64,000 nucleotides of DNA, taken from positions 1,674,001 to 1,738,000 of the forward strand of contig NZ_CP021731.1 in NCBI RefSeq assembly GCF_003628555.1, read 5' to 3'. Shown here one piece after another: positions 5,531 to 20,726 of this stretch (position 1 is the first letter of the stretch; every line of letters starts with the position of its first letter). Source of the DNA: Azoarcus sp. DN11 (lineage in GTDB: Bacteria; Pseudomonadota; Gammaproteobacteria; Burkholderiales; Rhodocyclaceae). The translations under genes and the position numbers were made by a program. Under the pieces are notes generated by a model. The model was not told where the DNA came from, did no database searches, and saw nothing but the letters and a program-made list of their open reading frames with translations.

Positions 5531-6910
5531 ATGTTCCCGGCCGTTCGGTCATCCATACAGATCGATTTCGAATCATCCATGCCCGAAAATAATACCGTTA
5601 CGATGGATCAGTTGCGGGTCGGTTTATATGTCATGCTCGATCTCGACTGGTTTCAGCATCCCTTTGCTTTCAGCCAGTTCAAGATCAAGTCCGAAGAGCA
5701 GATCTGCGAGATCCGTAGTCTGGGCCTGAACAGCGTCCGGTATAACCCGGCGCTGAGCGACACGACGGCGCGGCAGCCGTCCGCGGTCGAGGCGCCGGTG
5801 ACGCCCCCGCCAGAATCCCCCGGCCCCGACGCGCCGGCGGATGCCGCCGCTGCAGCAGCCCCCCAGGTCGTCGAATCGGCTGTCGCGCCAGCGCTTGCGG
5901 CGAAACGTGCGCTCGTCGAGCGCATCCGGATTCAGCGCGAGGCTGCCGCGCGCGTGGAGCATGCATTCGTCAGTGCTGCGAAGGCCATCCACGACATCGA
6001 GAAGAACCTGTATTCGAGCCCGAAGGAAGCTGTCGAGCATGCGACGCAGCTCGTGACCCAGATTGCGGATTCAATTCTGTGCGCGCCGGAACTGGCCATC
6101 CACGTGATGGGCGATCGGACTGGCGGTGAGGAACTCTATTTTCATTCCCTCAATGTCACGATGCTGTCGATGATGATCGCCCGGGATATTCGCGTTCCTC
6201 AGGAGGCACTCGGGGCACTGGGTCTGGGGGCGTTGCTGCACGACATCGGACGCAAGGAGATCCCGGACAGGATCCTGCTGAAGACCGAGCCGCTTGCGCC
6301 GGCAGAGCGAAAGCTTTATGAGATGCACTGTCACTATGGCGTGGAACTCGGTCGGCGCTTGCAGCTTTCGAAATCGGCTTTGGGCATCATCCGTGAGCAC
6401 CACGAGCTTTTTGATGGCAGCGGTTACCCGTCCGGGCTCGAAGGTGACGCAATTGGAATACTTCCGCGCATTGTTTCCGTGGCGAATTACTACGATGAGT
6501 TGTGCAATCCGGTGGATGTCGCGGCGGCATTGACGCCGCATGAGGCGCTTTCGACAATGTTTGCAAGGTTGCGTGCGAAATTCGATCCGCGCATGCTGCA
6601 GGCGTTCATACGGTGCCTCGGGGTCTACCCGCCCGGAACCATCGTGCAGTTGTCCAACGGAGTGATCGCGATGGTGGCCACGGTCAATACCGCCAAGCCG
6701 ATGAAGCCTGTCATCGTGATCTACGACGCGAACATTCCCAAAGAGGAAGCGATGCTGGCGGATCTGGCGCGCGAGCAGGACCTGAATATTGCGAAGGCCA
6801 TCCGCCCGGCGCAGGTGCCGCTCGAAATCTACAACTACCTGAGCCCGCGCAGGCGCGTCAGCTACTATTTCGATGCAGGACAACCTGGACAGGATACGGT
6901 GGCCGGATGA
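5531..6910 (+). CDS. HD-GYP domain protein (DUF3391 N-terminus), probable c-di-GMP phosphodiesterase
   Basis: A 459-residue soluble protein. The N-terminal region (about 25-80) resembles the DUF3391 domain that precedes many HD-GYP domains. A Pro/Ala-rich linker (about 85-120) leads to an HD-GYP domain with HDIG at 237-240 and HHELFDGSGYP at 290-300, all catalytic-type residues kept. Family knowledge predicts hydrolysis of cyclic di-GMP to pGpG/GMP. The ATG at 5531 has a GGGGG stretch upstream. An in-frame ATG at 5579 is possible and lies closer to the conserved domain, but lacks a ribosome-binding site. The stop overlaps the next gene's start (ATGA), so the two are translationally coupled. 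The gene opens the long plus-strand signalling block. Confidence 0.88.
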   Translation: MFPAVRSSIQIDFESSMPENNTVTMDQLRVGLYVMLDLDWFQHPFAFSQFKIKSEEQICEIRSLGLNSVRYNPALSDTTARQPSAVEAPVTPPPESPGPDAPADAAAAAAPQVVESAVAPALAAKRALVERIRIQREAAARVEHAFVSAAKAIHDIEKNLYSSPKEAVEHATQLVTQIADSILCAPELAIHVMGDRTGGEELYFHSLNVTMLSMMIARDIRVPQEALGALGLGALLHDIGRKEIPDRILLKTEPLAPAERKLYEMHCHYGVELGRRLQLSKSALGIIREHHELFDGSGYPSGLEGDAIGILPRIVSVANYYDELCNPVDVAAALTPHEALSTMFARLRAKFDPRMLQAFIRCLGVYPPGTIVQLSNGVIAMVATVNTAKPMKPVIVIYDANIPKEEAMLADLAREQDLNIAKAIRPAQVPLEIYNYLSPRRRVSYYFDAGQPGQDTVAG

Positions 6911-8595
6911 GCAGCCTCGCCGAATTGATGCTGGACCACAGCGCGCAGATGAAGCTCCTGGTGGACCCGGACTCGCTGCGAATCATGATGGGCAACCAGC
7001 TCGTAACCCGGACGCTGGGCTATTCGCGCGCGGATCTTCTCGCCATGTCCATTACCGACATCGAAAGCTCATTGCCGGATGTCTTCTATTGGGAAGATGC
7101 ACACAACGGGCAGCATCAGGAGATCGAAGGACAGGAAGGGCTGTATCGCTGCGCGGACGGTACGATGTTGACGGTGGTGAAATCGGTTCGGATCGTCACC
7201 CACGAGGGGCGCCCCCTGATGCTGGTGCTCGCGCGCGACACGCGGTACGAACGCAAGGTCGAGGACACGCTCGAGCAGACGCTCGAGCAGACGCTATCCC
7301 AACTGCGGGCGACGCTCGAATCGACCGGTAACGGAATCCTCGTGATCGACTGGCAGGGAAGCATCACCAACATGAATCGGCTGTTTAGCGGCATGTGGGA
7401 AATTCCTGAAGAATTGCTGCTGGAGCGGAACGATGCGGCAATTCTCGAGTTCATTGCCGGACGGGTAGTGGAGCCGGACCTGTGTCGGGCTCGCCTGCGC
7501 GCAACCGTCGACACCGCCGAGACCGAGGATCTGCTGCGATTGACCGACGGCCGCGTGTTCGAGTGCAAATCCCATCCGCAATACATCGGTGAACGGATCG
7601 TGGGGCGGGTGTTCGGCTACAGCGACATCACGGAGCGCATTCGCTCAGAAGAGACCCTGCGCGAATCGCGCGACCGTCTGGAAGATCGCGTGCGCGAGCG
7701 CACTGCCCAGTTGGAGAATGCGAATGTCACCTTGCAGGCCGAGAAGCTGCACCAGCAGACCCTGATTCGCAAGCTCGAAGAGGCGCACAACCAGCTTCTT
7801 CAGTCCGAAAAGTTGGCATCGATCGGCCAGCTCGCAGCCGGCGTCGCCCATGAAATCAACAATCCGGTCGGGTTCGTGAATTCGAACCTCGGGACGCTGC
7901 AGCGCTACGCGGAAGACCTGCTCCGTTTGCTTTCCGCATACGAACAGATCGAGCCAGCCCTGACTGTCGAACAGCTCGACGAGATCTCACGCATCAAACG
8001 GGAAATCGATGCAGGGTACCTGCGCGACGACATTGGCGACCTCCTGAACGAATCGCTCGACGGACTGCAGCGCGTCAAGCGCATCGTGCAGGACCTCAAG
8101 GACTTCTCGCATGTCGACAAGGCCGAACGCGAATTGGCGAATCTGGAAGCCGGCCTGGAGAGCACGCTGAATGTCGTCTGGAACGAGATCAAGTACAAGG
8201 CCGATGTGGTCAAGGAATACGCGCAGCTTCCCCGGATCGAATGCTTCCCTTCGCAACTCAACCAGGTCTTCATGAACCTCCTGGTGAATGCAGCTCATGC
8301 CATCGAGGACCACGGGCGGATCGCGCTGCGCACCGGATACGATGAAACCCATGTCTGGGTGGAAGTCGAAGATACCGGCAAGGGAATCCGGCCGGAGCAT
8401 CTCAGCCGGATTTTCGAACCGTTTTTCACCACCAAGGCCGTGGGCAAGGGCACGGGCCTTGGTTTGTCCGTGTCATACGGGATCGTCAGCCGCCACCACG
8501 GACACATCGACGTCAAGAGCGAACTTGGCAAGGGAACCGTGTTTCGCGTGGTCCTGCCGCGTGCTTTCACCGATGAGCCGTGCGAGGTGAAGTGA
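6907..8595 (+). CDS. Soluble PAS sensor histidine kinase
   Basis: A 562-residue protein without a membrane segment. Two PAS-like regions (about 10-115 and 130-245) are followed by a coiled coil (about 245-300) and a kinase core with phospho-acceptor His about 315 in GVAHEINNPVGF. The N box and the G boxes (DTGKG, GKGTGLGLS) are all intact. The stretch before the second PAS contains a short in-frame repeat (LEQT LEQT). The start overlaps the stop of the HD-GYP gene by four bases. The kinase core closely resembles that of the soluble kinase at 14938, including the unusual insert between the H box and the helix ending in LKDFS, suggesting duplication. Likely partners are the receivers encoded just downstream. 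Confidence 0.88.
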   Translation: MSSLAELMLDHSAQMKLLVDPDSLRIMMGNQLVTRTLGYSRADLLAMSITDIESSLPDVFYWEDAHNGQHQEIEGQEGLYRCADGTMLTVVKSVRIVTHEGRPLMLVLARDTRYERKVEDTLEQTLEQTLSQLRATLESTGNGILVIDWQGSITNMNRLFSGMWEIPEELLLERNDAAILEFIAGRVVEPDLCRARLRATVDTAETEDLLRLTDGRVFECKSHPQYIGERIVGRVFGYSDITERIRSEETLRESRDRLEDRVRERTAQLENANVTLQAEKLHQQTLIRKLEEAHNQLLQSEKLASIGQLAAGVAHEINNPVGFVNSNLGTLQRYAEDLLRLLSAYEQIEPALTVEQLDEISRIKREIDAGYLRDDIGDLLNESLDGLQRVKRIVQDLKDFSHVDKAERELANLEAGLESTLNVVWNEIKYKADVVKEYAQLPRIECFPSQLNQVFMNLLVNAAHAIEDHGRIALRTGYDETHVWVEVEDTGKGIRPEHLSRIFEPFFTTKAVGKGTGLGLSVSYGIVSRHHGHIDVKSELGKGTVFRVVLPRAFTDEPCEVK

Positions 8596-8881
8596 GTGCC
8601 CGGGCAGACGACGGTTCGGACCCTGTCGCCGGGCGGGACCGCCCGCAGGTGCCACCGTCCCCTCCGCACTCGACCAGCAGCACGTTCGGCGCGAGAATAC
8701 AGAATCCATACGAGCACGCAAGTCTGCTACCGTAGACGCCCGTCCGGTGCGGTTCTCCGCCTGGGTGTGGCGTGCAGCAGGGGGATTCCGGTAATGTGCG
8801 AAATGGGTGATGGGAGCATCCCCGGGTTACGTGTGCGGTGGGTTCCGGTCTAGCCGGAAGTCCTGGCTTTCCCTGTGCATC
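8596..8881. other. Intergenic gap within signalling block
   Basis: These 286 bases separate the kinase from the REC-HD-GYP gene. I see no convincing conserved reading frame, hairpin terminator or -24/-12 promoter. An open stretch at 8596-8853 has no coding character. The gap is long compared with the overlaps on both sides, so a promoter for the downstream genes probably lies here. Confidence 0.4.
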
Positions 8882-10207
8882 ATGAACGATACGACAAAGA
8901 CGTCCGCTTCCCTCCTGCTGGTCGACGACGAGCCGAGCATCCTGTCTGCGTTGCGGCGGCTTCTGCGACCTGCCGGCTACACGATCCACTCGGCCGGAAG
9001 TGGTCGCGCCGGCCTCGAACTGCTGGAGCGCGAACCGGTCGATCTGGTCATTTCGGACATGCGGATGCCCGAAATGGATGGCGCGAAGTTCCTCGAGCAG
9101 GTACGGGCACGCTGGCCCGAGGTGACGCGGATGCTGCTTACCGGCTACGCCGACATGGACTCGACCATCGCCGCGATCAACCGCGGCGAAATCTACCGCT
9201 ACGTCGCGAAACCGTGGGATGACAACGAACTCACGCTGACCATCCGCGATGCTCTCGAGCGTCGTCGGCTGCAGCGCGAGAACGCCCACCTGCTCGCCCT
9301 GACGCAGCAGCAGAACGACGCGCTGCGGGAGCTCAACGCGAGCCTCGAACTGCGGGTGCGTGAACGCACCGCGGAACTCGAAGAGGCCAACGGCTCCCTC
9401 AAGATCGCAAACGACAAGCTGAAACAGAATTTCGTCGTCTCCATCAAGATGTTCACGGGCCTCATGGAGCTGCGTGGGGGCGCGATGGCGGGGCACTCCC
9501 GCCGGGTAGCCGACCTCGCGCGGCGCATCGCCCAGCACCTGGAGATCGAAGGGAAAGCGCTGCAGGACATCTTCCTCGCGGGCCTGTTGCATGATATCGG
9601 CAAGATCGGGTTTCCCGATGCGCTCCTTAACCGCCCCGTAGTGCGGATGAACGGCGAGGAACGCGCGCTGTATCGCAAGCACCCGGTCGCCGGCGAGTCG
9701 GCGCTGATGCCGCTCGACGAACTGAAGGAGGCCGCACGACTGGTCCGGCTCCACCACGAGCGCTTCGACGGGAAGGGCTTCCCTGACGGTCTGGCCGGTT
9801 TGGCGATACCCCTCGGTGCGCGCATTCTCGCGGTGGCCAGCGATTACGACGGGCTCCAGCAAGGCACCCTTGCCGACAGGCGGCTGAGCGCCGACGAGGC
9901 GAAGGCAATGCTCGTCCAGTCGCGCGGCAAACGCTATGACTCCCAGATTGTCGACGCATTGCTCGAAATGCTCGGCCGTCCGAAGGCGGATCCGAACCGG
10001 GGGCAGGAAGTGCGCCCCGCCGACCTGCGATCGGGTATGGTTCTCGCACGCGATCTCGTCGGCCGCGACGGGGTGCTGCTGCTGGCCGCGGACTACATAC
10101 TCGATGCCAACCTGATACGGCAGATTCAGGACTACGCGCGCCGGGACGCGCCGGCGCTGGTACTACAAATCCGTTTAGACACGCGCGTCGTGCCCGAAGG
10201 GACATGA
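8882..10207 (+). CDS. Response regulator with HD-GYP output
   Basis: A 441-residue two-domain regulator. The receiver (about 10-125) keeps the acidic pair (VDDE at about 14-17), the phospho-acceptor Asp about 59 in SDMRMPEMDG and the conserved Lys in AKPWDD. A coiled coil (about 140-190) connects to an HD-GYP domain with HDIGK and HHERFDGKGFP, so the GYP tripeptide reads GFP. The RpfG-type architecture predicts phosphorylation-controlled c-di-GMP hydrolysis. A C-terminal extension of about 60 residues follows. I chose the ATG at 8882 because it directly precedes the receiver; upstream in-frame codons lack family-like sequence. It ends 29 bases before the next regulator's start. Confidence 0.85.
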   Translation: MNDTTKTSASLLLVDDEPSILSALRRLLRPAGYTIHSAGSGRAGLELLEREPVDLVISDMRMPEMDGAKFLEQVRARWPEVTRMLLTGYADMDSTIAAINRGEIYRYVAKPWDDNELTLTIRDALERRRLQRENAHLLALTQQQNDALRELNASLELRVRERTAELEEANGSLKIANDKLKQNFVVSIKMFTGLMELRGGAMAGHSRRVADLARRIAQHLEIEGKALQDIFLAGLLHDIGKIGFPDALLNRPVVRMNGEERALYRKHPVAGESALMPLDELKEAARLVRLHHERFDGKGFPDGLAGLAIPLGARILAVASDYDGLQQGTLADRRLSADEAKAMLVQSRGKRYDSQIVDALLEMLGRPKADPNRGQEVRPADLRSGMVLARDLVGRDGVLLLAADYILDANLIRQIQDYARRDAPALVLQIRLDTRVVPEGT

Positions 10208-10236
10208 CGCCGATTGCGCAGATATCGGAGGACCCC

Positions 10237-10833
10237 ATGAGCCGTATTCTGATCGTCGATGACGAAGAGTCCATCCTCAAGGCCTTGCGCCGCTTGCTGA
10301 TGCTCACGCCCTGCGTGGTCGGGGACAAGCATTTCAAGATCGTCGTGGATTGCTTCAGCGTGCCGAAACAGGCACTCGAGAAGGCCCGCCACACCGCCTA
10401 CGATCTGGTTCTTTCGGACTACCGCATGCCCGACATGGATGGCGTGCAGTTCCTGAAGGCGTTCCGCGAGTTGCAACCGCATTGCGCCCGCCTGATCCTG
10501 TCCGGCTACGCCGACCTCAATGGACTCATCGGCGCCATCAATGACGCGGGGATCAGCCGTTTCCTCTCGAAACCGTGGAACGACTACGAATTGGTCGCGG
10601 CCATCGCGCAGGCCCTCGCGCTGCGCGATCTCACGCTGGAAAACCAGCGGCTCGCGGATGAGGCGCGCCTGGCGCTGGGCGCGCTTTCGCCACAGCAGCT
10701 GGAACGCAACCGCCTCGAGGCCGAGGAGCCCGGCATCACCGACGTGAAATGGGGGCCGGATGGATCGGTCCTTCTCGACGAATCGCTGCTTGACGAACCG
10801 ATTCCCGACGACTGGAAGCCGGGGGGGCGTTGA
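10237..10833 (+). CDS. Response regulator, receiver plus short C-terminal extension
   Basis: A 198-residue protein. The receiver occupies about 1-130, with VDDEE, phospho-acceptor Asp61 in LSDYRMPDMDG and the SKPWND lysine. No DNA-binding or enzymatic output domain is visible in the remaining 70 residues. The receiver has an insertion of several residues after helix 1 (around CVVGDKHFK) compared with its neighbours. The ATG at 10237 is preceded by a strong GGAGGA at optimal distance, which decides against an earlier ATG that overlaps the previous stop. Its stop overlaps the start of the GTPase gene (TGATG), indicating coupling. Its role is probably phospho-relay or protein-protein control of the GTPase or secretion ATPase encoded next. 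Confidence 0.85.
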   Translation: MSRILIVDDEESILKALRRLLMLTPCVVGDKHFKIVVDCFSVPKQALEKARHTAYDLVLSDYRMPDMDGVQFLKAFRELQPHCARLILSGYADLNGLIGAINDAGISRFLSKPWNDYELVAAIAQALALRDLTLENQRLADEARLALGALSPQQLERNRLEAEEPGITDVKWGPDGSVLLDESLLDEPIPDDWKPGGR

Positions 10834-11486
10834 TGCCGGAATTCGAGCGCGAGGCGAATCGCGTCACCTTCAAGCTTGTGTATTACGGGCCGGCGCAGGG
10901 CGGCAAGACGACCAACCTGATGCAACTGCACGACCTCGCCGGCGCACAAATGAAGGGCGAACTGATGACTCTCGAAACACAGCATGACCGCACGCTGTTT
11001 TTCGACCTCCTTCCCCTGGGGTTCCGCACCGCGTCGGGACTCACCATCCGGTTGCGCCTCTTCACCGTTCCCGGACAGGTCGCTCACGACGGTACGCGCA
11101 AGGCCGTCTTGTCGCGTGCGGACGGGGTGGTGTTCGTCGCCGACTCGCAGCGCACGCAGGCGACCAACAATGGCGAATCGTTCCAGAACCTCGCAGAGAA
11201 CGTCGCGCGGGTCGGCCTGGATTTCGAGCACCTGCCGCTGGTGGTGCAATTCAACAAGCGCGATCTTCCGGACATCCTGTCCGAGGAGGAGATCGGGGAA
11301 CGCTACGCCGGCGCGCCCTGGCCGCTGCAGCTCGCGTCTGCGATCGACGGGCGCGGTGTCCGCGAGACCTTCACCGAACTGCTGCACGGCGTCTGGCGGC
11401 GCTATGCCGATGAACTCGAACTGGAGAGCCGGCACGGACTCGACGAGCAGTCCTTCGTCACGGCAGCGGGAGGCGGACAGGCATGA
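10833..11486 (+). CDS. MglA-like small GTPase
   Basis: A 217-residue Ras-superfamily GTPase of the bacterial MglA/gliding type. Visible motifs are P-loop GPAQGGKT (19-26), the MglA-typical DRTLFFDLLP (52-61), a TVPGQ switch (78-82) in place of DxxG, and NKRDL (141-145) for guanine recognition. MglA proteins mark a cell pole and direct type IV pilus or gliding machinery. No MglB-like roadblock protein is encoded next to it here, so its GAP is unknown. It overlaps the receiver gene upstream by one base, and its stop overlaps the next kinase start (ATGA). Its position between a receiver and a receiver-GspE fusion suggests a link between phosphorelay and a traffic ATPase. Confidence 0.85.
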   Translation: MPEFEREANRVTFKLVYYGPAQGGKTTNLMQLHDLAGAQMKGELMTLETQHDRTLFFDLLPLGFRTASGLTIRLRLFTVPGQVAHDGTRKAVLSRADGVVFVADSQRTQATNNGESFQNLAENVARVGLDFEHLPLVVQFNKRDLPDILSEEEIGERYAGAPWPLQLASAIDGRGVRETFTELLHGVWRRYADELELESRHGLDEQSFVTAAGGGQA

Positions 11487-12670
11487 CAGAAGCGGCCGGT
11501 TTTGACCGTGACTTCTCGCTCGGCGAACTTCTCGGCACGCGCGACGCCGACGACCTGTGCCGCACGCTTTCGGGATTGCTTGGAACGCCCGTGGCGATCC
11601 TCGATGAGCGGGGAGAGCCGTTCGGGGCCATGGCGCCGCCTCCCGGCGGCGAACGCGTGCCGCTCGTTCTCGAACTGGAGCCCGTCGGGTTTCTCGCCGC
11701 GGCCTGCCCCGCAGCCGCGCTCGCGGATGCCGCGCGCATGGTGCGCTGGGGGTTGTTGTCGCGCGCCCGGCTGCGCATGGTTTCCGATCTGCATCTCGAG
11801 GCGGTGCGCGCCGATTACGCCAAGCTGCAGCAGCAGAACGAAGCACTGAAGGCGTCCGAGGCCAAGTATCGCGATCTTGCCGCCACGCTCGACGCCAAGG
11901 TCAAGGAGCAGATCAAGGTCATCGACGAACGCCAGCTCCAGCTCTACCAGGCCGAACGTCTCGCCTCGATCGGACAACTCGCTGCCGGGGTCGCGCACGA
12001 GATCAACAATCCACTCGGCTTCATCGGCAGCAACCTGTCTGCGGCCGAACGTTATCTGAAAGGTCTGGAGGATTTGCGTGCCGTCGTCCCGTCGACTGTC
12101 TGGGAAGCGCGTGATCTCGATTTCGTGTTCACGGATTTTGCCGAACTGCTGACCGATTCACGGGTCGGCATCGACCGCATTGCGAGAATCGTGAAGGATC
12201 TGAAGGGTTTTTCGAGCGTAGACCAGCCCGAAGAGCAGGTGGTGAACCTTAATGCGCAGCTCGAAACCCTGATGTCGGTGCTGGTGGGCCAGAAGCCCGA
12301 CGCAGTAACCTTGAGCACGGATTTTTCGCCCTTGCCGCCGTTGTTATGCCTGCCCGGACACCTCAATCAGGCCTTCCTCAACATTCTCCAGAACGCCCTG
12401 CAGGCGGTGGCGGCGGGCGGCATCGTAACCGTGCATACCCGAACGGAGGAGGGGGTGATCTCGGTGGAGATCTCGGACTCGGGGCCGGGGATCCCACCGG
12501 AGATCCGGGCGCGCATTTTCGATCCCTTTTTCACGACCCGCGGTGTTGGCAGCGGTACGGGGCTTGGCCTGACCGTTGCTCGTGACATAATACTCGCGCA
12601 TAGCGGAACGGTATCGGTGATCTGCCCGCCGCAGGGCGGAACCCGCGTTACCGTCAATCTCCCGGTGTGA
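11483..12670 (+). CDS. Soluble histidine kinase with small N-terminal sensor region
   Basis: A 395-residue cytosolic kinase. The first 110 residues form a compact, unrecognised input region. A coiled coil (about 110-158) leads to the core, with acceptor His about 172 in GVAHEINNPLGF. The catalytic domain (about 260-395) has DSGPG and a GSGTGLGLT G box. It belongs to the same subfamily as the kinases at 6907 and 14938 but is more divergent. Its ATG overlaps the GTPase stop by four bases, and the receiver-ATPase gene begins six bases after its stop. That organisation suggests it phosphorylates the receiver of that ATPase or the lone receiver upstream. Confidence 0.85.
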   Translation: MTEAAGFDRDFSLGELLGTRDADDLCRTLSGLLGTPVAILDERGEPFGAMAPPPGGERVPLVLELEPVGFLAAACPAAALADAARMVRWGLLSRARLRMVSDLHLEAVRADYAKLQQQNEALKASEAKYRDLAATLDAKVKEQIKVIDERQLQLYQAERLASIGQLAAGVAHEINNPLGFIGSNLSAAERYLKGLEDLRAVVPSTVWEARDLDFVFTDFAELLTDSRVGIDRIARIVKDLKGFSSVDQPEEQVVNLNAQLETLMSVLVGQKPDAVTLSTDFSPLPPLLCLPGHLNQAFLNILQNALQAVAAGGIVTVHTRTEEGVISVEISDSGPGIPPEIRARIFDPFFTTRGVGSGTGLGLTVARDIILAHSGTVSVICPPQGGTRVTVNLPV

Positions 12671-12676
12671 CCGCAC

Positions 12677-14917
12677 ATGACCAATTACGCCGCCTACTTC
12701 ACCGGCAAGAGCGAGGCCCCCGCGAGTAGCGGGGCGGCACCTGCGGCGCGTTACCGCCTGTTGATCGTGGATGATGAACCCGCGATCCTGAAGGCGCTCG
12801 CGCGCACGTTCCGCGCCGAGGCGTATGAAATCGTCACGGCGAGCAACGGCAGCGAGGCGTTGGCACAGATGCGCGACGCACCCGTTCAGGTGGTCATCAG
12901 TGACTACATGATGCCGGGCATGAACGGTGCGGAACTGCTCAAACAGGTCAAGACGCTCTATCCCGATGCGATCCGCATCATGCTTACCGGCCATGCGGAT
13001 ACGGGCGCGGTCATGGGCGCCATCAACGAGGGGGCCGTCTACAAGTTCATCCTCAAGCCGTGGAATGACGATGACCTGCGTGTCACCGTCTCGCTTGCGC
13101 TCGAGCAGTTCGATCTCGTTCAGAAGAACCGTGCATTAACCCAGGAAAACGCCAAGAAATCGAAGGAGATCTCGGCCCTCTCGCGCCTGGCGGTGTCAAA
13201 CCGCAGCCAGCTGGGGATGATGCTGCACAAAAAGAACCTGCTCACCAGTGCGCAGGTGCAGGAACTCACGCGCCAGCAGGGGCTGCAGAAGGAACCGCTG
13301 ATCAAGCTTCTCCTGGATCGCGGATGGGTGAGCGAGAAGAGCCTGCGCAAGATCCTCCGCGAGGATCTGCTCGTCGAGGAGGTTTCGCTCGGCGAATTCC
13401 GCGTCGATGCGGCGGTCGCCGAGTTGATCCCGCGAGGGTTCTGCGAAAAGCAGCTGGTGGTGCCGCTCAAGCTCGAAGGACGGAGGCTGCTGCTGGCGGT
13501 GGCAGACCCGATGGATTCCGGCCTCATCGACGACGTCCGGTTTACGGCCGGGCTCGACCTCAAGGTCGTGATGGCCGACACTGCTGCGATCCGCGCAAAG
13601 ATTGCCGAGTTGTACGGGGATCGCGGCGAAGGCGTGGATATCCGCGATCTGGCGACGATGGTGGGCAGCGTCGATCCCTACGAGGGAATCGAGGTCGTGA
13701 TCGACGACGTCGAGGACGTTCCGTTGGACGAGCTGCTGGCGTCAACCAACGATCCGCCTGCGATTCGCCTGGTCAATGCGATCATTCTCGAAGCCATGCG
13801 GCTCGGCGCCTCGGATATCCACATCCAGCCGCGAACCAAGAACGTCGTCGTGCGCTTGCGGATCGACGGTGTCCTGCAGGACAAGATCCAGATCCCGCAT
13901 GCGTTGCACGGTCCCCTGGTGTCACGCCTCAAGATCATGGCGGAGCTCGACATCTCGGAGCGTCGCCGCCCGCAGGACGGGCGGCTGACGGTGAAATCGC
14001 CCCTGCGCATCGTCGATCTGCGGATCTCCACTTTGCCGACCATCAACGGCGAAAAGGTGGTCATGCGGATTCTCGATCGCAACTCGGCGGTGCTGAGTCT
14101 TGCCGGATTGGGATTTGGCGAAAGCGGGCTGGCCAAGGTGCGCGTCATGGTCGATAAACCCCAGGGCCTGCTCCTGGCAACCGGACCGACCGGCAGTGGC
14201 AAGACCACGACGCTGTATTCGCTTCTGCAGGCCAATGCATCGCCTGCCAAGAACTACATCACGATCGAGGATCCGGTCGAGTACTACCTCGACAATGCCG
14301 GGCAAGTCCTCGTGAAGGAAAAGATCGGGCTCACCTTCCCCGTGGTCTTGCGCTCGATCCTGCGCCAGGACCCCGATGTTCTCCTGATCGGCGAGATCCG
14401 CGACCTCGAGACCGCCGAAGTCGCCTTCCATGCGGCGCTGACCGGCCATCAGGTGCTATCGACCCTCCACACCAATTCGGCGATGGCCACGATTGCACGG
14501 CTGCTCGACGTCGGACTCAAGCCGTTCATCATCGCGAGCGCACTCGAAGGGGTCATCGCCCAGCGCCTGGTGCGGCGGATCTGCCGTCACTGCCGCCGTG
14601 ATCTCGCGCCCGACACGGCGACGCTGGCCCGGCTCGGTCCGCGTTTCCGCGACACTCCGCCGCCGACTTATATCGGTGCCGGGTGTGCCGAGTGCGACGG
14701 AACCGGCTATCGAGGCCGGTTGGGGCTTTATGAAATTCTGCTGCCTGACGAAGTGATGCGCGACCTGATCGCCCGCGGCGCCAGTACGAAAGAGCTCGCC
14801 GCGCATGCCCGTGCAGGTGGGCACGAGTCGCTCTGGGACGATGCCTGGAGCAAGGTGGCCCGCGGCGACACCACGATCGCGGAAGTGCTGCGGGTGCTCG
14901 GCCCGGAACCCGAATAG
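12677..14917 (+). CDS. Receiver - MshEN - GspE/PilB-like secretion ATPase fusion
   Basis: A 746-residue fusion. Residues 26-145 are a receiver with Asp76 in SDYMMPGMNG and Lys127 in LKPWND. Residues 178-230 contain two tandem 24-residue MshEN-like motifs separated by five residues, the arrangement known to bind c-di-GMP in MshE. A T2SSE N-terminal domain follows to about 315. The ATPase then shows Walker A GPTGSGKTT (503-511), Asp box ITIEDPVEY, Walker B LLIGEIRD (569-576), His box STLHTN, and a CRHC/CAEC zinc tetracysteine (636-673). Family members power type IV pilus extension or type II secretion from the inner membrane. None of the other pilus or secretion parts is encoded nearby. The ATG follows the kinase stop by six bases. 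Confidence 0.9.
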   Translation: MTNYAAYFTGKSEAPASSGAAPAARYRLLIVDDEPAILKALARTFRAEAYEIVTASNGSEALAQMRDAPVQVVISDYMMPGMNGAELLKQVKTLYPDAIRIMLTGHADTGAVMGAINEGAVYKFILKPWNDDDLRVTVSLALEQFDLVQKNRALTQENAKKSKEISALSRLAVSNRSQLGMMLHKKNLLTSAQVQELTRQQGLQKEPLIKLLLDRGWVSEKSLRKILREDLLVEEVSLGEFRVDAAVAELIPRGFCEKQLVVPLKLEGRRLLLAVADPMDSGLIDDVRFTAGLDLKVVMADTAAIRAKIAELYGDRGEGVDIRDLATMVGSVDPYEGIEVVIDDVEDVPLDELLASTNDPPAIRLVNAIILEAMRLGASDIHIQPRTKNVVVRLRIDGVLQDKIQIPHALHGPLVSRLKIMAELDISERRRPQDGRLTVKSPLRIVDLRISTLPTINGEKVVMRILDRNSAVLSLAGLGFGESGLAKVRVMVDKPQGLLLATGPTGSGKTTTLYSLLQANASPAKNYITIEDPVEYYLDNAGQVLVKEKIGLTFPVVLRSILRQDPDVLLIGEIRDLETAEVAFHAALTGHQVLSTLHTNSAMATIARLLDVGLKPFIIASALEGVIAQRLVRRICRHCRRDLAPDTATLARLGPRFRDTPPPTYIGAGCAECDGTGYRGRLGLYEILLPDEVMRDLIARGASTKELAAHARAGGHESLWDDAWSKVARGDTTIAEVLRVLGPEPE

Positions 14918-14937
14918 CGAATAGGAGACGTCGCAAA

Positions 14938-15846
14938 ATGAATGTTGGGAGCGCGCAGACCTTGCAGTCATCGAGCGGTAACGCCCTCGACGAGCGGCAG
15001 TTGCTCGAGCGGCTCAGGCAGACGGAGGGGCAGCTTCTCCAGTCCGAGAAGCTGGCGGCGGTGGGGCAGCTTGCGGCCGGAATCGCTCACGAGATCAACA
15101 ATCCGGTCGGTTTCGTGAGTTCGAACCTGGGCTCCCTGCAAAACTACATCGAACGGCTGTTCGCGATCCTCGATGCGTACGAGAGGCTGGAGCGGGAACT
15201 GCCCGCGGAACATCCCGCCCGGCTCGAGGTGGCCGCGCTTTGCCGGGATGCCGAACTGGGATATCTCCGGCAGGACATTCCCGATCTTCTGAGCGAATCG
15301 ATCGAGGGGCTTGCGCGCGTCAAGGGGATCATCAATGACCTCAAGGACTTTTCGCGTATCGATGACGGGCAGCGCGAAGTGACGGACCTGCATCGCTGTC
15401 TGGAGAGCACCCTCAACGTCATACGCAACGAGATCAAGTACAAGGCGGAAATCGTCCGTGAGTTCGGTGAGCTTCCGCTCGTCAGCTGCGTTCCGGCCCA
15501 GATCAGCCAGGTGTTCATGAACCTGCTCGTCAATGCCGCCCAGGCCATCGACGCGGCCGGAATCATTACCTTGCGAACCGGTGCGAAGGCGGACCATGTG
15601 TGGGTCGAAATTTGCGACACCGGCAAGGGGATTCCCCCCGAGATCCAGGCCCGCGTCTTCGAACCCTTCTTTACCACCAAGCCGATCGGCAAGGGAACGG
15701 GGCTCGGACTATCCATTTCGCATGATATCGTCCAGCGCCACGGCGGCAATCTGATTCTGACCAGCACCGTCGGAGAAGGAACGACGTTCCGCATGACTCT
15801 CCCCACCGGAGACGCGTCCGAGCAAGGCGGGCATTTGACGCAATGA
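14938..15846 (+). CDS. Minimal soluble histidine kinase without sensor domain
   Basis: A 302-residue kinase consisting almost only of a short helical leader (1-38), the H box with His about 51 in GIAHEINNPVGF, a dimerisation region, and an ATPase domain with DTGKG and GKGTGLGLS. It resembles the kinase at 6907 along its whole length from the H box onward, so the pair looks like a duplication with loss or gain of PAS domains. AGGAG lies upstream of the ATG at 14938. Its stop overlaps the start of the next gene (ATGA). Having no sensor of its own, it probably takes input from a partner protein. Confidence 0.85.
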   Translation: MNVGSAQTLQSSSGNALDERQLLERLRQTEGQLLQSEKLAAVGQLAAGIAHEINNPVGFVSSNLGSLQNYIERLFAILDAYERLERELPAEHPARLEVAALCRDAELGYLRQDIPDLLSESIEGLARVKGIINDLKDFSRIDDGQREVTDLHRCLESTLNVIRNEIKYKAEIVREFGELPLVSCVPAQISQVFMNLLVNAAQAIDAAGIITLRTGAKADHVWVEICDTGKGIPPEIQARVFEPFFTTKPIGKGTGLGLSISHDIVQRHGGNLILTSTVGEGTTFRMTLPTGDASEQGGHLTQ

Positions 15847-18422
15847 CGCCTGAGTGGACGCCGGAAAGTCCCGAAAAAAACCGCCCAAAGACGCCGCTAC
15901 AGCGCGATCCGGTTCTTGAAGGGGCGTTGACCGACCGCTTGGCGCACATGCTCGCGGCCAGTCCGGCAGTCGTATATACGCTGCGCGCGGAAGGCGAGAG
16001 ATTCGTGCCGACCTGGGTCAGCGAAAATATCGTTCGGCTGATGGGGTATCCGCTGGAGGAATGCCTCCAGCCGGATTGGTGGCCATCACATGTCCATCCG
16101 GACGATCTTGGTCGGGTGCTCGCACTTGTGCCCCGCCTGCTCTCCGAAGGCAGCCTTGTCACCGAGTACCGGTTTCGTGACCGGAGCGGCGCGATTCGCT
16201 GGATACGCGATCAGCAGCGCGTGCTCGCCCCTGCCGGCGAGGACTCGCCGTTGCAGATCATAGGCTCCTGGAACGACATCACCGCCGAGCACGACGCACA
16301 GGAGCGCCTGCGTCTTTACGGTGTCGCCCTCGAGAACAGTTGCGAGGCGGTGCTGATTTCCGATCCCGGCCCTCGAATCCTCGCCGTCAACCCCGCCTTT
16401 ACCCGCATGAGCGGATACACCGAGGCGGAGGTTCTCGGACGGAATCCCAACGTCCTGCGTTCCGGACGCCACGATCAGGCCTTCTTTCGGGCGATGTGGG
16501 ATTCGGTCGCCAGGACCGGTTGCTGGGAGGGGGAAATATGGAACCGGCGCAAGGATGGGGAGGTGTTTCCGCAGTGGTTGTCCATCAGCACCGTGCGTGA
16601 CGCGGCCGGCCGGCCGGCACACTATGTCGCGGTGGCCAGCGACCTGTCCGAACTCAAGCGCAGCGAGGAAAAGTTGCGTTGGCTGGCCCACTTCGATGTG
16701 CTCACCGAGTTGCCCAACCGGGTCTTGCTCGAGTTGCGCCTCGAGCACGCGCTCGAACGGGCGAAGCGTCATGGGTTCTGCCTGGCGGTTCTTGTCCTCG
16801 ATCTCGACCGGTTCAAGAACGTGAATGACAGCCTGGGCCATGCCGCCGGCGACCAGTTGCTGCAGGAAGTAGCGCGGCGCCTGCGCAAACGTTTACGCAG
16901 TGAGGATACCCTCGCGCGCCTGGCCGGCGATCAGTTTGCCATTGCGATGGAGGGGCTGGCTGATTTCCGTGACGCCGAGCGGATGGCGCGTGAGATGCAG
17001 TCGCTTCTGGAGCCTCCATTCACCCTCGTCGACGGGGCCGAAATTTACGTTACCGCGTGTATCGGTATCAGCGTATGCCCCGAGGACGGCGCCGCGGCGG
17101 CGGCGTTGCTGGATAAGGCGAACACGGCGGTACATCAGGCGAAGGCGCTCGGGGGAAACCATTTCAGCTATTACACCAGTGAGCTGAATACCCAGGCATT
17201 GAACGCGCTGGAACTCGAGGGTGCGCTGCGGCGCGCCCTCGAGCGCGGCGAATTCGTGCTGCATTATCAGCCCAAGGTCGACATCTTCAGCGGCCGCGTG
17301 TGCGGCGCGGAAGCGCTCGTGCGGTGGCAGCGCCCCGACCACGGTCTGGTGCCCCCGTTGCAGTTCATTCCCCAGGCCGAGCGCAGCGGTCTGATCGTGC
17401 CGCTGGGGGCGTGGGTAATCGACGAGGCGTGTCGCCAGATGCGCGCGTGGGCGGATGCCGGACTCGGCGAGGTCGGCGTCGCGGTCAACGTTTCGCCGCG
17501 GCAGTTCCGCGGCGACGACCTCGAAGCGATTGTCGCGAGTGCGCTGTCTCGCCACGGCGTCCGGCCCGACCTGCTGATGCTCGAACTGACCGAGGGCATG
17601 CTGATGGAGCGTCCCGAGGAGACGGTGAAGCGCTTGACGAAATTGAAACGATTGGGCGTCAGACTGTCGCTCGATGATTTCGGCACGGGGTATTCGAGTC
17701 TCGGTTACCTGAGCCGCTTTCCCATCGATCAACTGAAAATCGACCGTTCCTTCGTCACCAACATCGTCTCCGATCCGAGTTCGGCCATCATTGCCACGTC
17801 GGTGATCGGGCTCGCGCACCGCATGGGTATCGATGTCGTTGCCGAAGGAGTAGAAACGGAGCCGCAACTGAGCTATTTGCGGAGAAACCGGTGCGACAAG
17901 ATGCAGGGCTATCTTTTCAGCAAACCGCTGCCGGCCGACGATTTTTGCGAACTCGTTCATCAGGAGATTTGTCTGCCCGCCATGACTCCGGTAACCGATA
18001 CGCGAACCCTTCTGCTCGTCGACGACGAGCCCAACATCCTTTCCTCGATCCGGCGATTGCTGCGGGGCGAGGGCTATCGCGTGCTGACGGCGGGTAGCGC
18101 ACGGGAGGCCCTGGAGATCCTCGCCGGGGAGCCCGTGCAGGTCATTCTGTCCGATCAGCGAATGCCCGAAATGAACGGGACCGAGTTTCTCGGCCGCGTC
18201 AAGGTGCTCCACCCGAGTACGGTGCGCATCGTGTTGTCCGGTTACACGGAGTTGGAATCGATCATGCAGGCGGTCAACACCGGCGCCTTGTACAAGTTCC
18301 TGACGAAGCCCTGGGACGACAATGCGTTGCGCGAGCACGTTCGCGATGCGTTCAGCTACTACGAGGCGGTATTGGCGCCGCGCGCTGCCGGCGTCACGAA
18401 CGGCCTCGCGCCGGGCCGCTAG
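15843..18422 (+). CDS. PAS-PAS-GGDEF(degenerate)-EAL-receiver protein
   Basis: An 859-residue cytosolic protein. Two PAS domains (about 35-150 and 155-270) precede a GGDEF domain whose active site reads AGDQF (361-365). Loss of the first Gly and Glu makes cyclase activity unlikely; it may be a regulatory GTP site. The EAL domain (about 455-710) keeps EAL (490-492) and the DDFGTGYSSL loop, so c-di-GMP hydrolysis is expected. A receiver closes the protein (about 720-840) with VDDE, SDQRMPEMNG and TKPWDD. A C-terminal receiver after EAL is an uncommon order. The start overlaps the stop of the minimal kinase by four bases, making that kinase the natural donor. This is the last plus-strand gene of the block. 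Confidence 0.88.
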   Translation: MTPEWTPESPEKNRPKTPLQRDPVLEGALTDRLAHMLAASPAVVYTLRAEGERFVPTWVSENIVRLMGYPLEECLQPDWWPSHVHPDDLGRVLALVPRLLSEGSLVTEYRFRDRSGAIRWIRDQQRVLAPAGEDSPLQIIGSWNDITAEHDAQERLRLYGVALENSCEAVLISDPGPRILAVNPAFTRMSGYTEAEVLGRNPNVLRSGRHDQAFFRAMWDSVARTGCWEGEIWNRRKDGEVFPQWLSISTVRDAAGRPAHYVAVASDLSELKRSEEKLRWLAHFDVLTELPNRVLLELRLEHALERAKRHGFCLAVLVLDLDRFKNVNDSLGHAAGDQLLQEVARRLRKRLRSEDTLARLAGDQFAIAMEGLADFRDAERMAREMQSLLEPPFTLVDGAEIYVTACIGISVCPEDGAAAAALLDKANTAVHQAKALGGNHFSYYTSELNTQALNALELEGALRRALERGEFVLHYQPKVDIFSGRVCGAEALVRWQRPDHGLVPPLQFIPQAERSGLIVPLGAWVIDEACRQMRAWADAGLGEVGVAVNVSPRQFRGDDLEAIVASALSRHGVRPDLLMLELTEGMLMERPEETVKRLTKLKRLGVRLSLDDFGTGYSSLGYLSRFPIDQLKIDRSFVTNIVSDPSSAIIATSVIGLAHRMGIDVVAEGVETEPQLSYLRRNRCDKMQGYLFSKPLPADDFCELVHQEICLPAMTPVTDTRTLLLVDDEPNILSSIRRLLRGEGYRVLTAGSAREALEILAGEPVQVILSDQRMPEMNGTEFLGRVKVLHPSTVRIVLSGYTELESIMQAVNTGALYKFLTKPWDDNALREHVRDAFSYYEAVLAPRAAGVTNGLAPGR

Positions 18423-18457: not shown

Positions 18458-20545
18458 TCAGGTTGAACGCGGGACGGAACGTTCGCCTGACGCTGGGTGC
18501 GTGTCATCGACCGGGAGCCACAATCGGACGGACGTGCCCTGTCCCTGGGTGCTATCCACCTCGAAGCGCCCGCCGTGCTTCTGCGCAATGTTGTATGCCA
18601 CCGACAGTCCGAGCCCGGTTCCCTGTCCGACGGGCCGCGTCGTGTAGAAGGGGTCGAACATGTGATCGCTGACGTCGGACGGCATGCCGCAGCCGGTATC
18701 GGCAATCTCGACACATACCTCGTCGAGCCCGCGCGACGTGCGCAAGGTGATCGTTCCACGATGGTCGATGGCATGGACGGCGTTGAGCAGCAGGTTCAGG
18801 AAGATCTGGTTGAGTTGGACGGCATTGCCGCGTACTGGTGGTAGGGCCGCGTAATCGCGCACCACCTCAGCCTTCTCGTCAATCGCCGCGGCCACCATCT
18901 TGAGGGTGGCGTCGAGGCAATGGTTGATGTCCACGTTCCCCCATTCGGCGGGTGAGCTGTCGATTCGGGAGAAGTCCTTCAGATCGGTCACGATGCGGCC
19001 GACGCGTTGCAGACCCTGGCGGCTTTCGCCTATCAGGTCGCGAAGATCGTTGCGGAGGAAGTCGAGATCGGCCGCTTCGCGCATCCGCTTGACCGTCGCA
19101 TGCGCCGATGCGTCCGCTGTCGCCGCGATCACCCCCTCGTAGCCGTCGATCAGGTTCAGGAGATTGTTTACGTAGGTTTCGAGTGTCGCAAAATTCGAGT
19201 TGACGAAAGCCAGGGGGTTATTCATCTCGTGCGCAACCCCGGCGGCCAGTTGCCCCAGGCCGGCGAGTTTCTCGGCCTGGATCAGCTGGACCTGCGTCTC
19301 GGCGAGGCGCGCGTTCGTGTCCTGCAGCTCGGTTACGGTTTCGTTCAGCAGCTGCTCGTGCTGCCGGCGTTTGGTGATATCGTGGAAAATGACCACGCCG
19401 CCCGGCGCGCGACTGCTGTCCATGTGAAGCGGGGCACTCGCGTACTCGACCGGGAAGCTGCTGCCGTCCTTGCGGAAGAAGACCTCGTCGTCCCGATGTT
19501 CAATGTGCGCGTGTTGACGCGAGCGTGCGATCGGACAGTCTGCAAACGCGTAAGGGCGCCCGTCCGCATGATGGTGGTGCACCAGCGCGTGGGCAGCCTG
19601 GCCGATCACCTCGGTCTCCTGATAGCCGAGCATCGTCAACGCAGCAGGGTTCACGAACATGATCCGGCCTTCCCCGTCGACGCCGTAGATCCCGTCCGCG
19701 ACCGAATTCAATACGGTCTGCAACTGACGCATCAAGGCCGTGAGCGCGAGGCGGTCGTCGGCCATCTGCGTGATCGTCCGATTGATCGCCGACGCGATCC
19801 GGGCCATTTCCGACTCCCCCTCGAGGTAAGGGATCCCAACGGATTGCTCCCCACGCGCGATCGCGTCCAGGGCCTCCTCGATGCCGCCGATGCGCTGCAT
19901 GATGTGACGACCGAGGTGCACGGAAAAGAGGACGAGGCAGAACAGTCCGGCACCCAGCACGGCCGAGACGGCAAGCCGGGTGTGCCGAATCGAGCTTTTC
20001 AGATTCTGCGTTGCCGTAAGGCCATGTTGTTCCTGCAGCGTGGTCAGGATCTGCAGATTTTCGACGAGGGCTTGCTGGAGCTGGTACCAGCCCGTCTCGC
20101 TCAGGTACGACAACTGCGCCCGGTCGCGCTGCTCGTATGCCTGCTCGGTTCCGTCGAGAAAGGTTTGAAGGATCGGCAAGGAGGTCGCGATGTCTTCAAT
20201 CAGGGCATCTTCGGCAGGATCGTCGACCTCGCTGCGGTGATCCCGACGAAAGGTTTGCCACGCCGTCAGCAAGAGCGGCCGCTCCTTCCGCAGCATCTCC
20301 AGAGCACCGCGCGGGGTCGACTGGCCCAGGAGGACGGATTGCATCCTGGTATGAATCGATTGGAGCCGTGCCCCGAGTGCATGCAATTCCATTGCGGGGA
20401 GCATTTCGCCCCGGATCACGCGAAGAAAGGCGCGGTCCGTCACCTGCTGGGCCCACACGGACGCCAAGGCGAGGCCAAGCATCACCGCGCCTGCGAAGAT
20501 GGCCTGAAGGCCGAGGCGTCTGCGAATGCTCAAGTGTCGGATCAT
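18458..20545 (-). CDS. Membrane sensor histidine kinase (4HB-like sensor, HAMP, PAS)
   Basis: A 695-residue kinase with an N-terminal membrane helix (about 10-32), an all-helical periplasmic region (about 33-185), a second helix (about 190-212) and a HAMP-like linker. A PAS domain (about 265-390) is followed by a coiled coil. The H box has GVAHEMNNPLAF, and the catalytic domain shows DTGCG and GQGTGLGLS. The DHp/ATPase part resembles the soluble kinases of the adjacent block. I placed the start at 20545, directly before the positively charged end of helix 1; an in-frame ATG at 20596 is possible, and neither has a clear ribosome-binding site. It converges with the PAS-GGDEF-EAL-REC gene. The FixJ-like regulator 181 bp upstream is a likely partner. 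Confidence 0.85.
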   Translation of the reverse strand: MIRHLSIRRRLGLQAIFAGAVMLGLALASVWAQQVTDRAFLRVIRGEMLPAMELHALGARLQSIHTRMQSVLLGQSTPRGALEMLRKERPLLLTAWQTFRRDHRSEVDDPAEDALIEDIATSLPILQTFLDGTEQAYEQRDRAQLSYLSETGWYQLQQALVENLQILTTLQEQHGLTATQNLKSSIRHTRLAVSAVLGAGLFCLVLFSVHLGRHIMQRIGGIEEALDAIARGEQSVGIPYLEGESEMARIASAINRTITQMADDRLALTALMRQLQTVLNSVADGIYGVDGEGRIMFVNPAALTMLGYQETEVIGQAAHALVHHHHADGRPYAFADCPIARSRQHAHIEHRDDEVFFRKDGSSFPVEYASAPLHMDSSRAPGGVVIFHDITKRRQHEQLLNETVTELQDTNARLAETQVQLIQAEKLAGLGQLAAGVAHEMNNPLAFVNSNFATLETYVNNLLNLIDGYEGVIAATADASAHATVKRMREAADLDFLRNDLRDLIGESRQGLQRVGRIVTDLKDFSRIDSSPAEWGNVDINHCLDATLKMVAAAIDEKAEVVRDYAALPPVRGNAVQLNQIFLNLLLNAVHAIDHRGTITLRTSRGLDEVCVEIADTGCGMPSDVSDHMFDPFYTTRPVGQGTGLGLSVAYNIAQKHGGRFEVDSTQGQGTSVRLWLPVDDTHPASGERSVPRST

Positions 20546-20726
20546 GGTGCGTGCAAACGGGCCAAGGTCAGGAATGGTAAGGCATTCCCCCCGCATTGAC
20601 TACGACCAATTGTGTATTCTCGATGTCATTCAGGCACACGCCTGTCGTCGCCTGGAAGTCTCTGCCGTGTGATATTGGCTTCGGCGCACCCTCATGAAAT
20701 CCGGGGTTCGCTCGTGGAGTCCCGGC

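Follow-up and report, generated by a model that had tools for sequence, protein, structure and literature searches.

A conserved GTPase–kinase–ATPase core in Azoarcus sp. DN11 and its possible role as a switched type IV pilus motor

A 64,000-nucleotide stretch of the 4.96-Mb single-contig genome of Azoarcus sp. DN11 (positions 1,674,001-1,738,000; hereafter the window) carries on its plus strand, at 5531-18422 of the window, nine open reading frames (ORFs; g1 to g9) that combine cyclic di-GMP (c-di-GMP) enzymes and two-component proteins with an MglA-type GTPase and a motor ATPase. A reading made from the sequence alone had taken all nine for one intracellular circuit. The fixed unit is instead a smaller core consisting of the GTPase (g5), a soluble histidine kinase (g6) and an ATPase fused to a receiver (REC) domain (g7), whose conserved order and co-occurrence are beyond chance. 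We favour, at roughly even odds (a probability of about 0.48), the explanation that this core is an alternative type IV pilus extension motor switched by receiver phosphorylation and by the GTP state of an MglA-type GTPase for which no MglB was found. This preference rests on the conserved order and co-occurrence, the catalytic residues retained in all three proteins, the negative searches for a nearby platform gene and for MglB, and the co-segregation of receiver and kinase subfamilies in three loci. It rests further on the recurrence of the GTPase-ATPase link in a sister group and on the recruitment of PilB by MglA and SgmX in Myxococcus xanthus (PMC11580455).

Conservation and co-occurrence of the core

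Loci were gathered by scanning genome contigs with a GTPase profile built from a 17-sequence alignment, and the best 80 of 578 confirmed stretches, ranked by GTPase similarity, were kept. Together with 16 loci from relatives they form the set L004-L099, in which L020, L022, L023, L030, L041 and L045 are repeats (L114, fetched separately, repeats L080); residue-conservation counts include these six. All 81 loci of the set with more than 3.7 kb of downstream DNA (76 distinct, five fetched twice) carry the GTPase, kinase and REC-ATPase genes in this order on one strand, the g6 orthologue lying directly downstream of the GTPase gene in each. The same order is found in six of eight further distinct loci (L100, L110-L113 and L115), which brings the overall count to 82 of 84 distinct loci with enough downstream DNA. 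Both exceptions, L116 and L117, hold damaged or partial GTPases. L116 was fetched for its GTPase but is counted as an exception rather than as a module; the GTPase gene there lies antisense to shell genes, the C-terminal end of its product departs from the family and neither a kinase nor an ATPase gene follows. In L117 (8926-10236) the REC-HD-GYP and REC genes are retained, and the short ORF behind them matches scraps of the GTPase and of the ATPase alike, which looks like a triad lost as a whole.

The sequence-only reading had named a lack of conserved gene order as what would speak against it; since the order of the core is kept beyond the Rhodocyclales, that is not what the relatives display. 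With the scan loci limited to the best 80 of 578, the module is carried by Beta- and Gammaproteobacteria, by Thermodesulfobacteriota and by one Acidobacteriota metagenome-assembled genome, a Polarisedimenticolaceae genome that may be a binning error. Among those named are Dechloromonas, Azonexus, Zoogloea, Sulfuricella, Janthinobacterium, Methylomonas, Halovibrio and the thermodesulfobacterial Desulfogranum. The sole match on a plasmid was in Deinococcus, at 41% identity.

Co-occurrence points the same way. The GTPase was found in 16 of 61 genomes (that of strain DN11 and 60 relatives; an extra weak match, E 2.4e-4 in G025, falls within those 16), and full-length REC-ATPase orthologues (E = 0; 66-96% identity to the window copy) occur in the identical 16 but nowhere among the remaining 45, one genome, G010, carrying both proteins in two copies. 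In a class draw of 369 genomes, nine hold the GTPase at E <= 1e-20; the ATPase was found at E <= 1e-150 in seven of these nine and in none of the other 360, and the two without it, G096 and G395, hold partial GTPases. Only the best ATPase candidates per genome were scored in these comparisons (17 in the 61-genome set and two in the draw). Pairwise distances are correlated between kinase and ATPase (r = 0.90), between REC-HD-GYP protein and ATPase (0.93) and between GTPase and kinase (0.66), the permutation maxima being below 0.2. An all-against-all search of 4125 ORFs from 80 loci found signalling families recurring near the module; the remaining ORF clusters were judged, from their strand and from the letters of four of them, to be out-of-frame copies of real genes.

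The claim that the whole string forms one module did not survive this comparison. A lone REC gene stands upstream in 54 of the 87 loci with more than 2.3 kb of upstream DNA, and a REC-HD-GYP protein matching over at least 70% of its length is encoded upstream of the GTPase in 55 of them (62 when receiver-only matches are counted). After the ATPase gene a kinase gene follows in 13 of the 16 relative loci, with g8 as best match in 11 and g2 in two. The presence of g1, g2, g8 and g9 varies among loci, g1 being found at full length upstream of the core in the nearest relatives, L004 and L005. One might then suppose that only the triad is real and that ordinary two-component and c-di-GMP genes have gathered around it, so that the nine genes share no function. 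The variability of these four genes and the degenerate c-di-GMP motif of g7 (see below) are what this supposition would expect, but it leaves aside the upstream genes present in more than half of the loci and the membership of the receivers in one subfamily and of the kinases in another, and we hold it to be quite improbable.

The core proteins and the machine they may drive

By profile, the best matches of g5 in the PDB are 6h17 (1.2e-52) and 3t12 (3.6e-52), the MglA structures of Myxococcus and Thermus, and the next is an ARF protein at 1.9e-6. Group 1 MglA proteins are recognized by TVPGQ in the G3 motif and an Arg beside the G2 Thr (PMC4316618). The corresponding residues (Arg54, Thr55, Thr79, Gly82 and Gln83) are present in 95 of 95 lettered rows of the g5 alignment (97 rows, six of them duplicates), as is the P-loop, and the Lys of NKxD is kept in 94 of the 95. 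When 111 GTPases are placed in a tree, the 103 from modules group together with modest support (0.63), set against eight outgroup rows only. Module members differ from these eight at His86-Asp87, Ala92 and Ser95-Arg96, among other positions, just past the catalytic Gln; MglB contacts the switch II region of MglA. A C-terminal tail with HGL....F closes the window's g5 and both of the other module ORFs that were checked; three canonical ORFs end before it and five sister ORFs within it.

A gene for MglB (Roadblock, PF03259) was found in none of the 16 relatives-set genomes that bear the module, strain DN11 included, two of these being just 79-84% complete. In G428-G430, module-bearing genomes outside that set that do have Roadblock genes, these adjoin a second, canonical MglA gene. 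GTPase scores in the Desulfogranum class separate cleanly: five of 144 genomes exceed 290 bits, 115 have best matches of 143-181 bits and 24 have none, and three of the five high-scoring genomes also hold a canonical MglA gene with an adjacent Roadblock gene. The lower-scoring GTPases of that class were compared through five sister-group and three canonical loci. In all five fetched loci of the sister group (L102-L106) a Roadblock gene lies just upstream of the GTPase gene, and genes for a T2SSE ATPase and a receiver protein lie downstream. This second MglA-motor operon is exemplified by L105 (2906-9503), where Pfam identifies Roadblock, GTPase, a 538-residue protein without a named family, a TPR-MshEN-T2SSE ATPase and REC-DUF4388; in L103 the Roadblock protein, the protein without a named family (about 500 residues in this operon type) and REC-DUF4388 proteins were confirmed. 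DUF4388 is presumably the PATAN domain. The proposed link between an MglA-type GTPase and a pilus or secretion ATPase thus recurs in an operon of different build.

In the core kinase g6 neither the H box nor the N box is lost in any of 95 rows. Its AlphaFold model (mean predicted local distance difference test score, pLDDT, 86.4; predicted template modelling score, pTM, 0.49) gave 865 PDB matches, and because the 50 listed are all kinases or kinase constructs we leave the fold of its own N-terminal domain unnamed. A Roadblock-like N-terminus, which would amount to a built-in MglB, was considered and rejected on sequence: in a profile comparison of 86 filtered N-termini (of 95) with nine Roadblock sequences, the probability was 0.1%.

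The residues of a working motor are retained in g7. Every row that reaches them (all 86 or 87 lettered rows) keeps Walker A and B, both histidines of the His box and the C-terminal domain's four Cys, and among the motor residues, Asp box included, the one change, Asp532 to Glu in four of 87, is conservative. The phospho-acceptor Asp, the Thr/Ser and the Lys of its receiver are kept in 87 of 87 rows, and receiver residues 100-140 rank among the most conserved of the protein. The closest solved relatives by sequence are PilB (6olj/5tsg), then PilF and GspE; a predicted structure of medium confidence (mean pLDDT 74.8, pTM 0.44) has 50 listed structure matches, all of them to PilB, PilF, GspE, BfpD, PilT or PilU.

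The sequence-only reading had suggested co-occurrence with pil or gsp loci as a check, and here no platform gene of either machine came to light nearby. A two-sequence profile, aimed at the T2SSF platform gene (PilC/GspF) and not at pilins or secretins, found no such gene in the module loci that were fetched. The genome has its T2SSF genes at 227, 658, 3828 and 4313 kb, so that the window has none nearby. This could mean that g7 is no longer a motor but a signalling ATPase, whose nucleotide state is set by phosphorylation and by the GTPase and is read by other proteins, for instance in the control of polysaccharides. The identifiable conserved neighbours are indeed signalling proteins, and PilB of M. 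xanthus is an intermediary in exopolysaccharide regulation (PMC5544727), but the motor residues listed above would be needless for pure signalling, and we regard this explanation as unlikely.

Alternatively, the module may drive not the main type IV pilus but a type II-like machine or a minor pilus or pseudopilus encoded elsewhere, such as at the T2SSF-T2SSE locus at 658-661 kb. The ATPase of that locus is 44% identical to g7, against 39% for the ATPase beside pilC at 3826 kb, and the scores of g7 with the PilB and GspE profiles are nearly equal. That locus, however, already has an ATPase of its own, and four congeners (G005, G007, G009 and G012) possess the 44%-identical ATPase without the module GTPase, which makes this alternative rather unlikely. 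In the genome of strain DN11, whose 12 T2SSE matches include 11 above the family cut-off, a GAF-MshEN-T2SSE ATPase (L119, 9573-11981, minus strand) lies 68 kb from the nearest T2SSF gene and is perhaps a second sensor-fused orphan motor.

Several observations weigh against the explanation that the core is a switched pilus extension motor. The g7 protein falls short of the cut-offs both for PilB (TIGR02538, 540.9 bits against 675.65) and for GspE (TIGR02533, 537.5 against 630.25), so that the machine it would drive cannot be named. Roadblock genes do turn up in six of 13 wider module genomes, in each case away from the module, and a distant MglB could therefore serve in some of these. Distances correlate at just 0.58 between GTPase and ATPase and at 0.56 between GTPase and REC-HD-GYP protein, although the loci had been selected by GTPase similarity. 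Two genomes, G096 and G395 (those of L116 and L117), retain shell genes with a damaged GTPase and without an intact triad. Finally, the module is patchily present (16 of 61 and seven of 369 genomes), a pattern suggesting that ordinary pili can do without the module.

If the core is such a motor, g6 and its sister kinases would phosphorylate the four related receivers, that of g7 included. The GTP-bound GTPase would then recruit or activate the ATPase, much as MglA acts on PilB through SgmX in Myxococcus, and the ATPase would dock on a pilus apparatus whose genes lie at another place, most likely that of the chromosomal pilB-pilC system. Kinase signal and GTPase would in this way jointly set the time and site of pilus building. 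The HD-GYP and EAL enzymes that accompany the core would lower c-di-GMP in the same response by a route other than the MshEN domain of g7. Action of c-di-GMP on the ATPase through MshEN finds no support in the motifs. The MshEN type of c-di-GMP receptor is recognized by two 24-residue RLG...Q motifs (PMC5013675). In g7 the first has Gln in place of Arg in 70 of 87 rows (Arg in 17), Ala in place of Gly in 45 and the final Gln in 79, while in the second Arg and Gly are missing and the last residue is Glu or Asp in 86 of 87. Binding of c-di-GMP by this route thus appears less likely, though a degenerate domain could still bind.

More tentatively, and at odds well below even, the receiver-fused motor may be the direct effector of the MglB-less GTPase, and the adjacent kinase may supply the motor with phosphate and also be the missing regulator of the GTPase. 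The core would then be a self-contained switch, a two-key lock on a molecular motor that has spread through several phyla and is plugged into the pilus machine of each host.

Comparison with known systems

The closest parallel is the MglA/MglB-RomR-SgmX-PilB pathway of M. xanthus, in which PilB is brought to the pilus machine by MglA and its effector SgmX (PMC11580455), a TPR protein (PMC7519303). Both systems have a Group 1 MglA (TVPGQ and the intrinsic Arg), receiver proteins and a pathway that ends in an extension ATPase (PMC4316618, PMC11580455). They differ in that mglA of M. xanthus is not near the genes of its receiver partners (PMC4316618), whereas here GTPase, kinase and ATPase share one operon; in that the receiver is here fused to the ATPase; and in that MglB was found neither at the locus nor in any genome of the relatives set that bears the module (16 in all). 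In cyanobacteria, PATAN-REC proteins (PixE and its kin) are thought to act on the motor ATPase PilB1, which again connects a receiver to a motor; the receiver there is a separate protein, and the accessible text mentions no GTPase (PMC7690835). Actinobacterial conservons (CvnA-D) likewise place a histidine kinase and an MglA-family GTPase in one operon but have a Group 2 GTPase, an MglB homologue and, among the four proteins, neither a response regulator nor a motor ATPase (PMC4316618). With the c-di-GMP-regulated MshE/PilB-type ATPases g7 shares the MshEN and T2SSE domains, to which it adds an N-terminal receiver, and its RLG...Q motifs are degenerate.

No description of such a module was found in the literature, in a search whose scope excluded subscription journals and preprints. 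The neighbourhoods of Group 1 MglA genes vary widely, and no such operon is described in the available parts of the paper that surveys them (PMC4316618). A term search of the accessible text of a 2024 review on PilB (PMC11656802) gave no GTPase, receiver or MglA, and the Ramlibacter genome paper, in the portion available, describes no such module (PMC3164672). Since control of PilB by MglA is already known, the novelty lies in a variant of it, confined to one operon and without MglB. To our knowledge, the route from MglA-GTP to the extension ATPase and the use of MglA-type GTPases without MglB are both open questions. Here one operon supplies all three proteins and the motor carries its own control domain, so that three purified proteins would suffice to test phosphotransfer, binding and motor activity. 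The core also offers an easily read genomic marker of pilus motors that are signal-gated and platform-less.

Kinases, receivers and layout of the nine-gene string

Pfam and NCBIfam agree with the gene content first read from the sequence: two HD-GYP proteins, one EAL-REC protein, three kinases, four receivers, one MglA-type GTPase and one motor ATPase (Table 1). The three kinases had been called related and soluble, which holds on both counts. The closest relatives of g8 in the genome are g2 (58% identity), the minus-strand kinase downstream of the string (47%), g6 (41%) and two kinases elsewhere, and since no 19-residue stretch in any of the nine proteins exceeds 1.6 on the Kyte-Doolittle scale (the minus-strand kinase reaches 2.5), all nine fit soluble proteins. 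Six kinases of the kind of g8, itself included, stand apart by a drop from 157 to 97 bits: four are encoded here, one at a chemosensory locus and one at 4.47 Mb. Among the 107 receiver matches of the genome, eight of the kind of g7, itself included, stand apart by a drop from 75 to 50 bits, with four here, three in the chemosensory locus (366-378 kb) and the eighth at 4.47 Mb. That the same three loci hold both subfamilies is as would be expected of a cognate kinase-receiver set. The chemosensory operon (L120, 1263-16072) encodes CheR, a methyl-accepting chemotaxis protein, CheA-REC and CheB as well as two GGDEF-EAL-REC proteins, which carry the three g7-like receivers. At L121 (7600-10402), the genes of a g8-like kinase and of a tandem-receiver protein come after those of QueC, an OmpA-family protein and a TolA-binding TPR protein.

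The phospho-acceptor Asp of g4 is present in 58 of 58 lettered rows (60 in all), and the Asp and Lys of the g3 receiver in 59 of 59; the receiver of g9 was identified by Pfam. The tail of g4 carries a conserved motif, PGIT.V.WG.DGSV (window positions 10729-10779), just before the GTPase gene. With two HD-GYP proteins and an EAL protein whose cyclase motif reads AGDQF, the cluster would lower c-di-GMP. Among g3 orthologues (L004-L099), His237 is changed in seven of 59 rows and Asp238 in five, hinting at a binding rather than an enzymatic role for the proteins that lack these residues. A recurrent protein of about 275 residues is encoded near the module in 19 loci (L031, L043, L053, L070 and L072 among them); it joins a g9-like receiver to an unnamed C-terminus, for which two of three scanned proteins gave a weak PAS match.

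Table 1. Genes and intervening features of the string, in window coordinates
Feature	Positions	Strand	Evidence
g1, DUF3391-HD-GYP c-di-GMP phosphodiesterase, accessory	5531-6910	+	Pfam DUF3391, HD_5; HD and GYP motifs present
g2, PAS-containing soluble histidine kinase, accessory	6907-8595	+	Pfam PAS, HisKA, HATPase_c; 58% identity to g8
286-bp intergenic gap, likely boundary of two transcription units	8596-8881	+	3.2-kb gene there in L004
g3, REC-HD-GYP phosphodiesterase, frequent upstream core member	8882-10207	+	Pfam REC, HD_5; NCBIfam NF053512, 574.7 against a cut-off of 400
g4, receiver with conserved C-terminal tail	10204-10833 (likely start 10237)	+	Pfam REC only
g5, MglA-type small GTPase, Group 1 signature, without MglB	10833-11486	+	Profile match to MglA structures
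g6, soluble core histidine kinase with its own N-terminal domain	11483-12670	+	Pfam HisKA, HATPase_c
g7, REC-MshEN-T2SSE core motor ATPase	12677-14917	+	Pfam REC, MshEN, T2SSE
g8, short soluble histidine kinase, accessory	14938-15846	+	Pfam
g9, PAS-PAS-GGDEF-EAL-REC protein, accessory	15843-18422	+	Pfam; cyclase motif AGDQF degenerate, EAL motifs present
Fourth sister kinase, HAMP-PAS-histidine kinase, convergent, probably membrane-bound	18458-20596	-	Pfam, similarity to g8, hydropathy

Many junctions had been read as translationally coupled. This stands for g1/g2, g5/g6 and g8/g9 (ATGA overlaps) and for g4/g5 (TGATG), and short gaps of 6 and 20 bp separate g6/g7 and g7/g8. The ATGA at g3/g4 is probably not the true start of g4, because alignments of its orthologues begin near Met12, which is preceded by GGAGG. 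Nor does coupling extend across the gap between g2 and g3, and this gap, together with the gene inserted there in the close relative L004, makes two units more likely than one. No consensus promoter was found in the gap, and a scan for promoters and terminators returned three and four sites, respectively, against 2.4 and 9.1 in shuffled sequences. The sequence-only reading had omitted the fourth sister kinase, which faces the string from the minus strand and holds the same convergent position in eight of the 16 relative loci (L006-L013), the fetched DNA of L004 and L005 stopping within g9.

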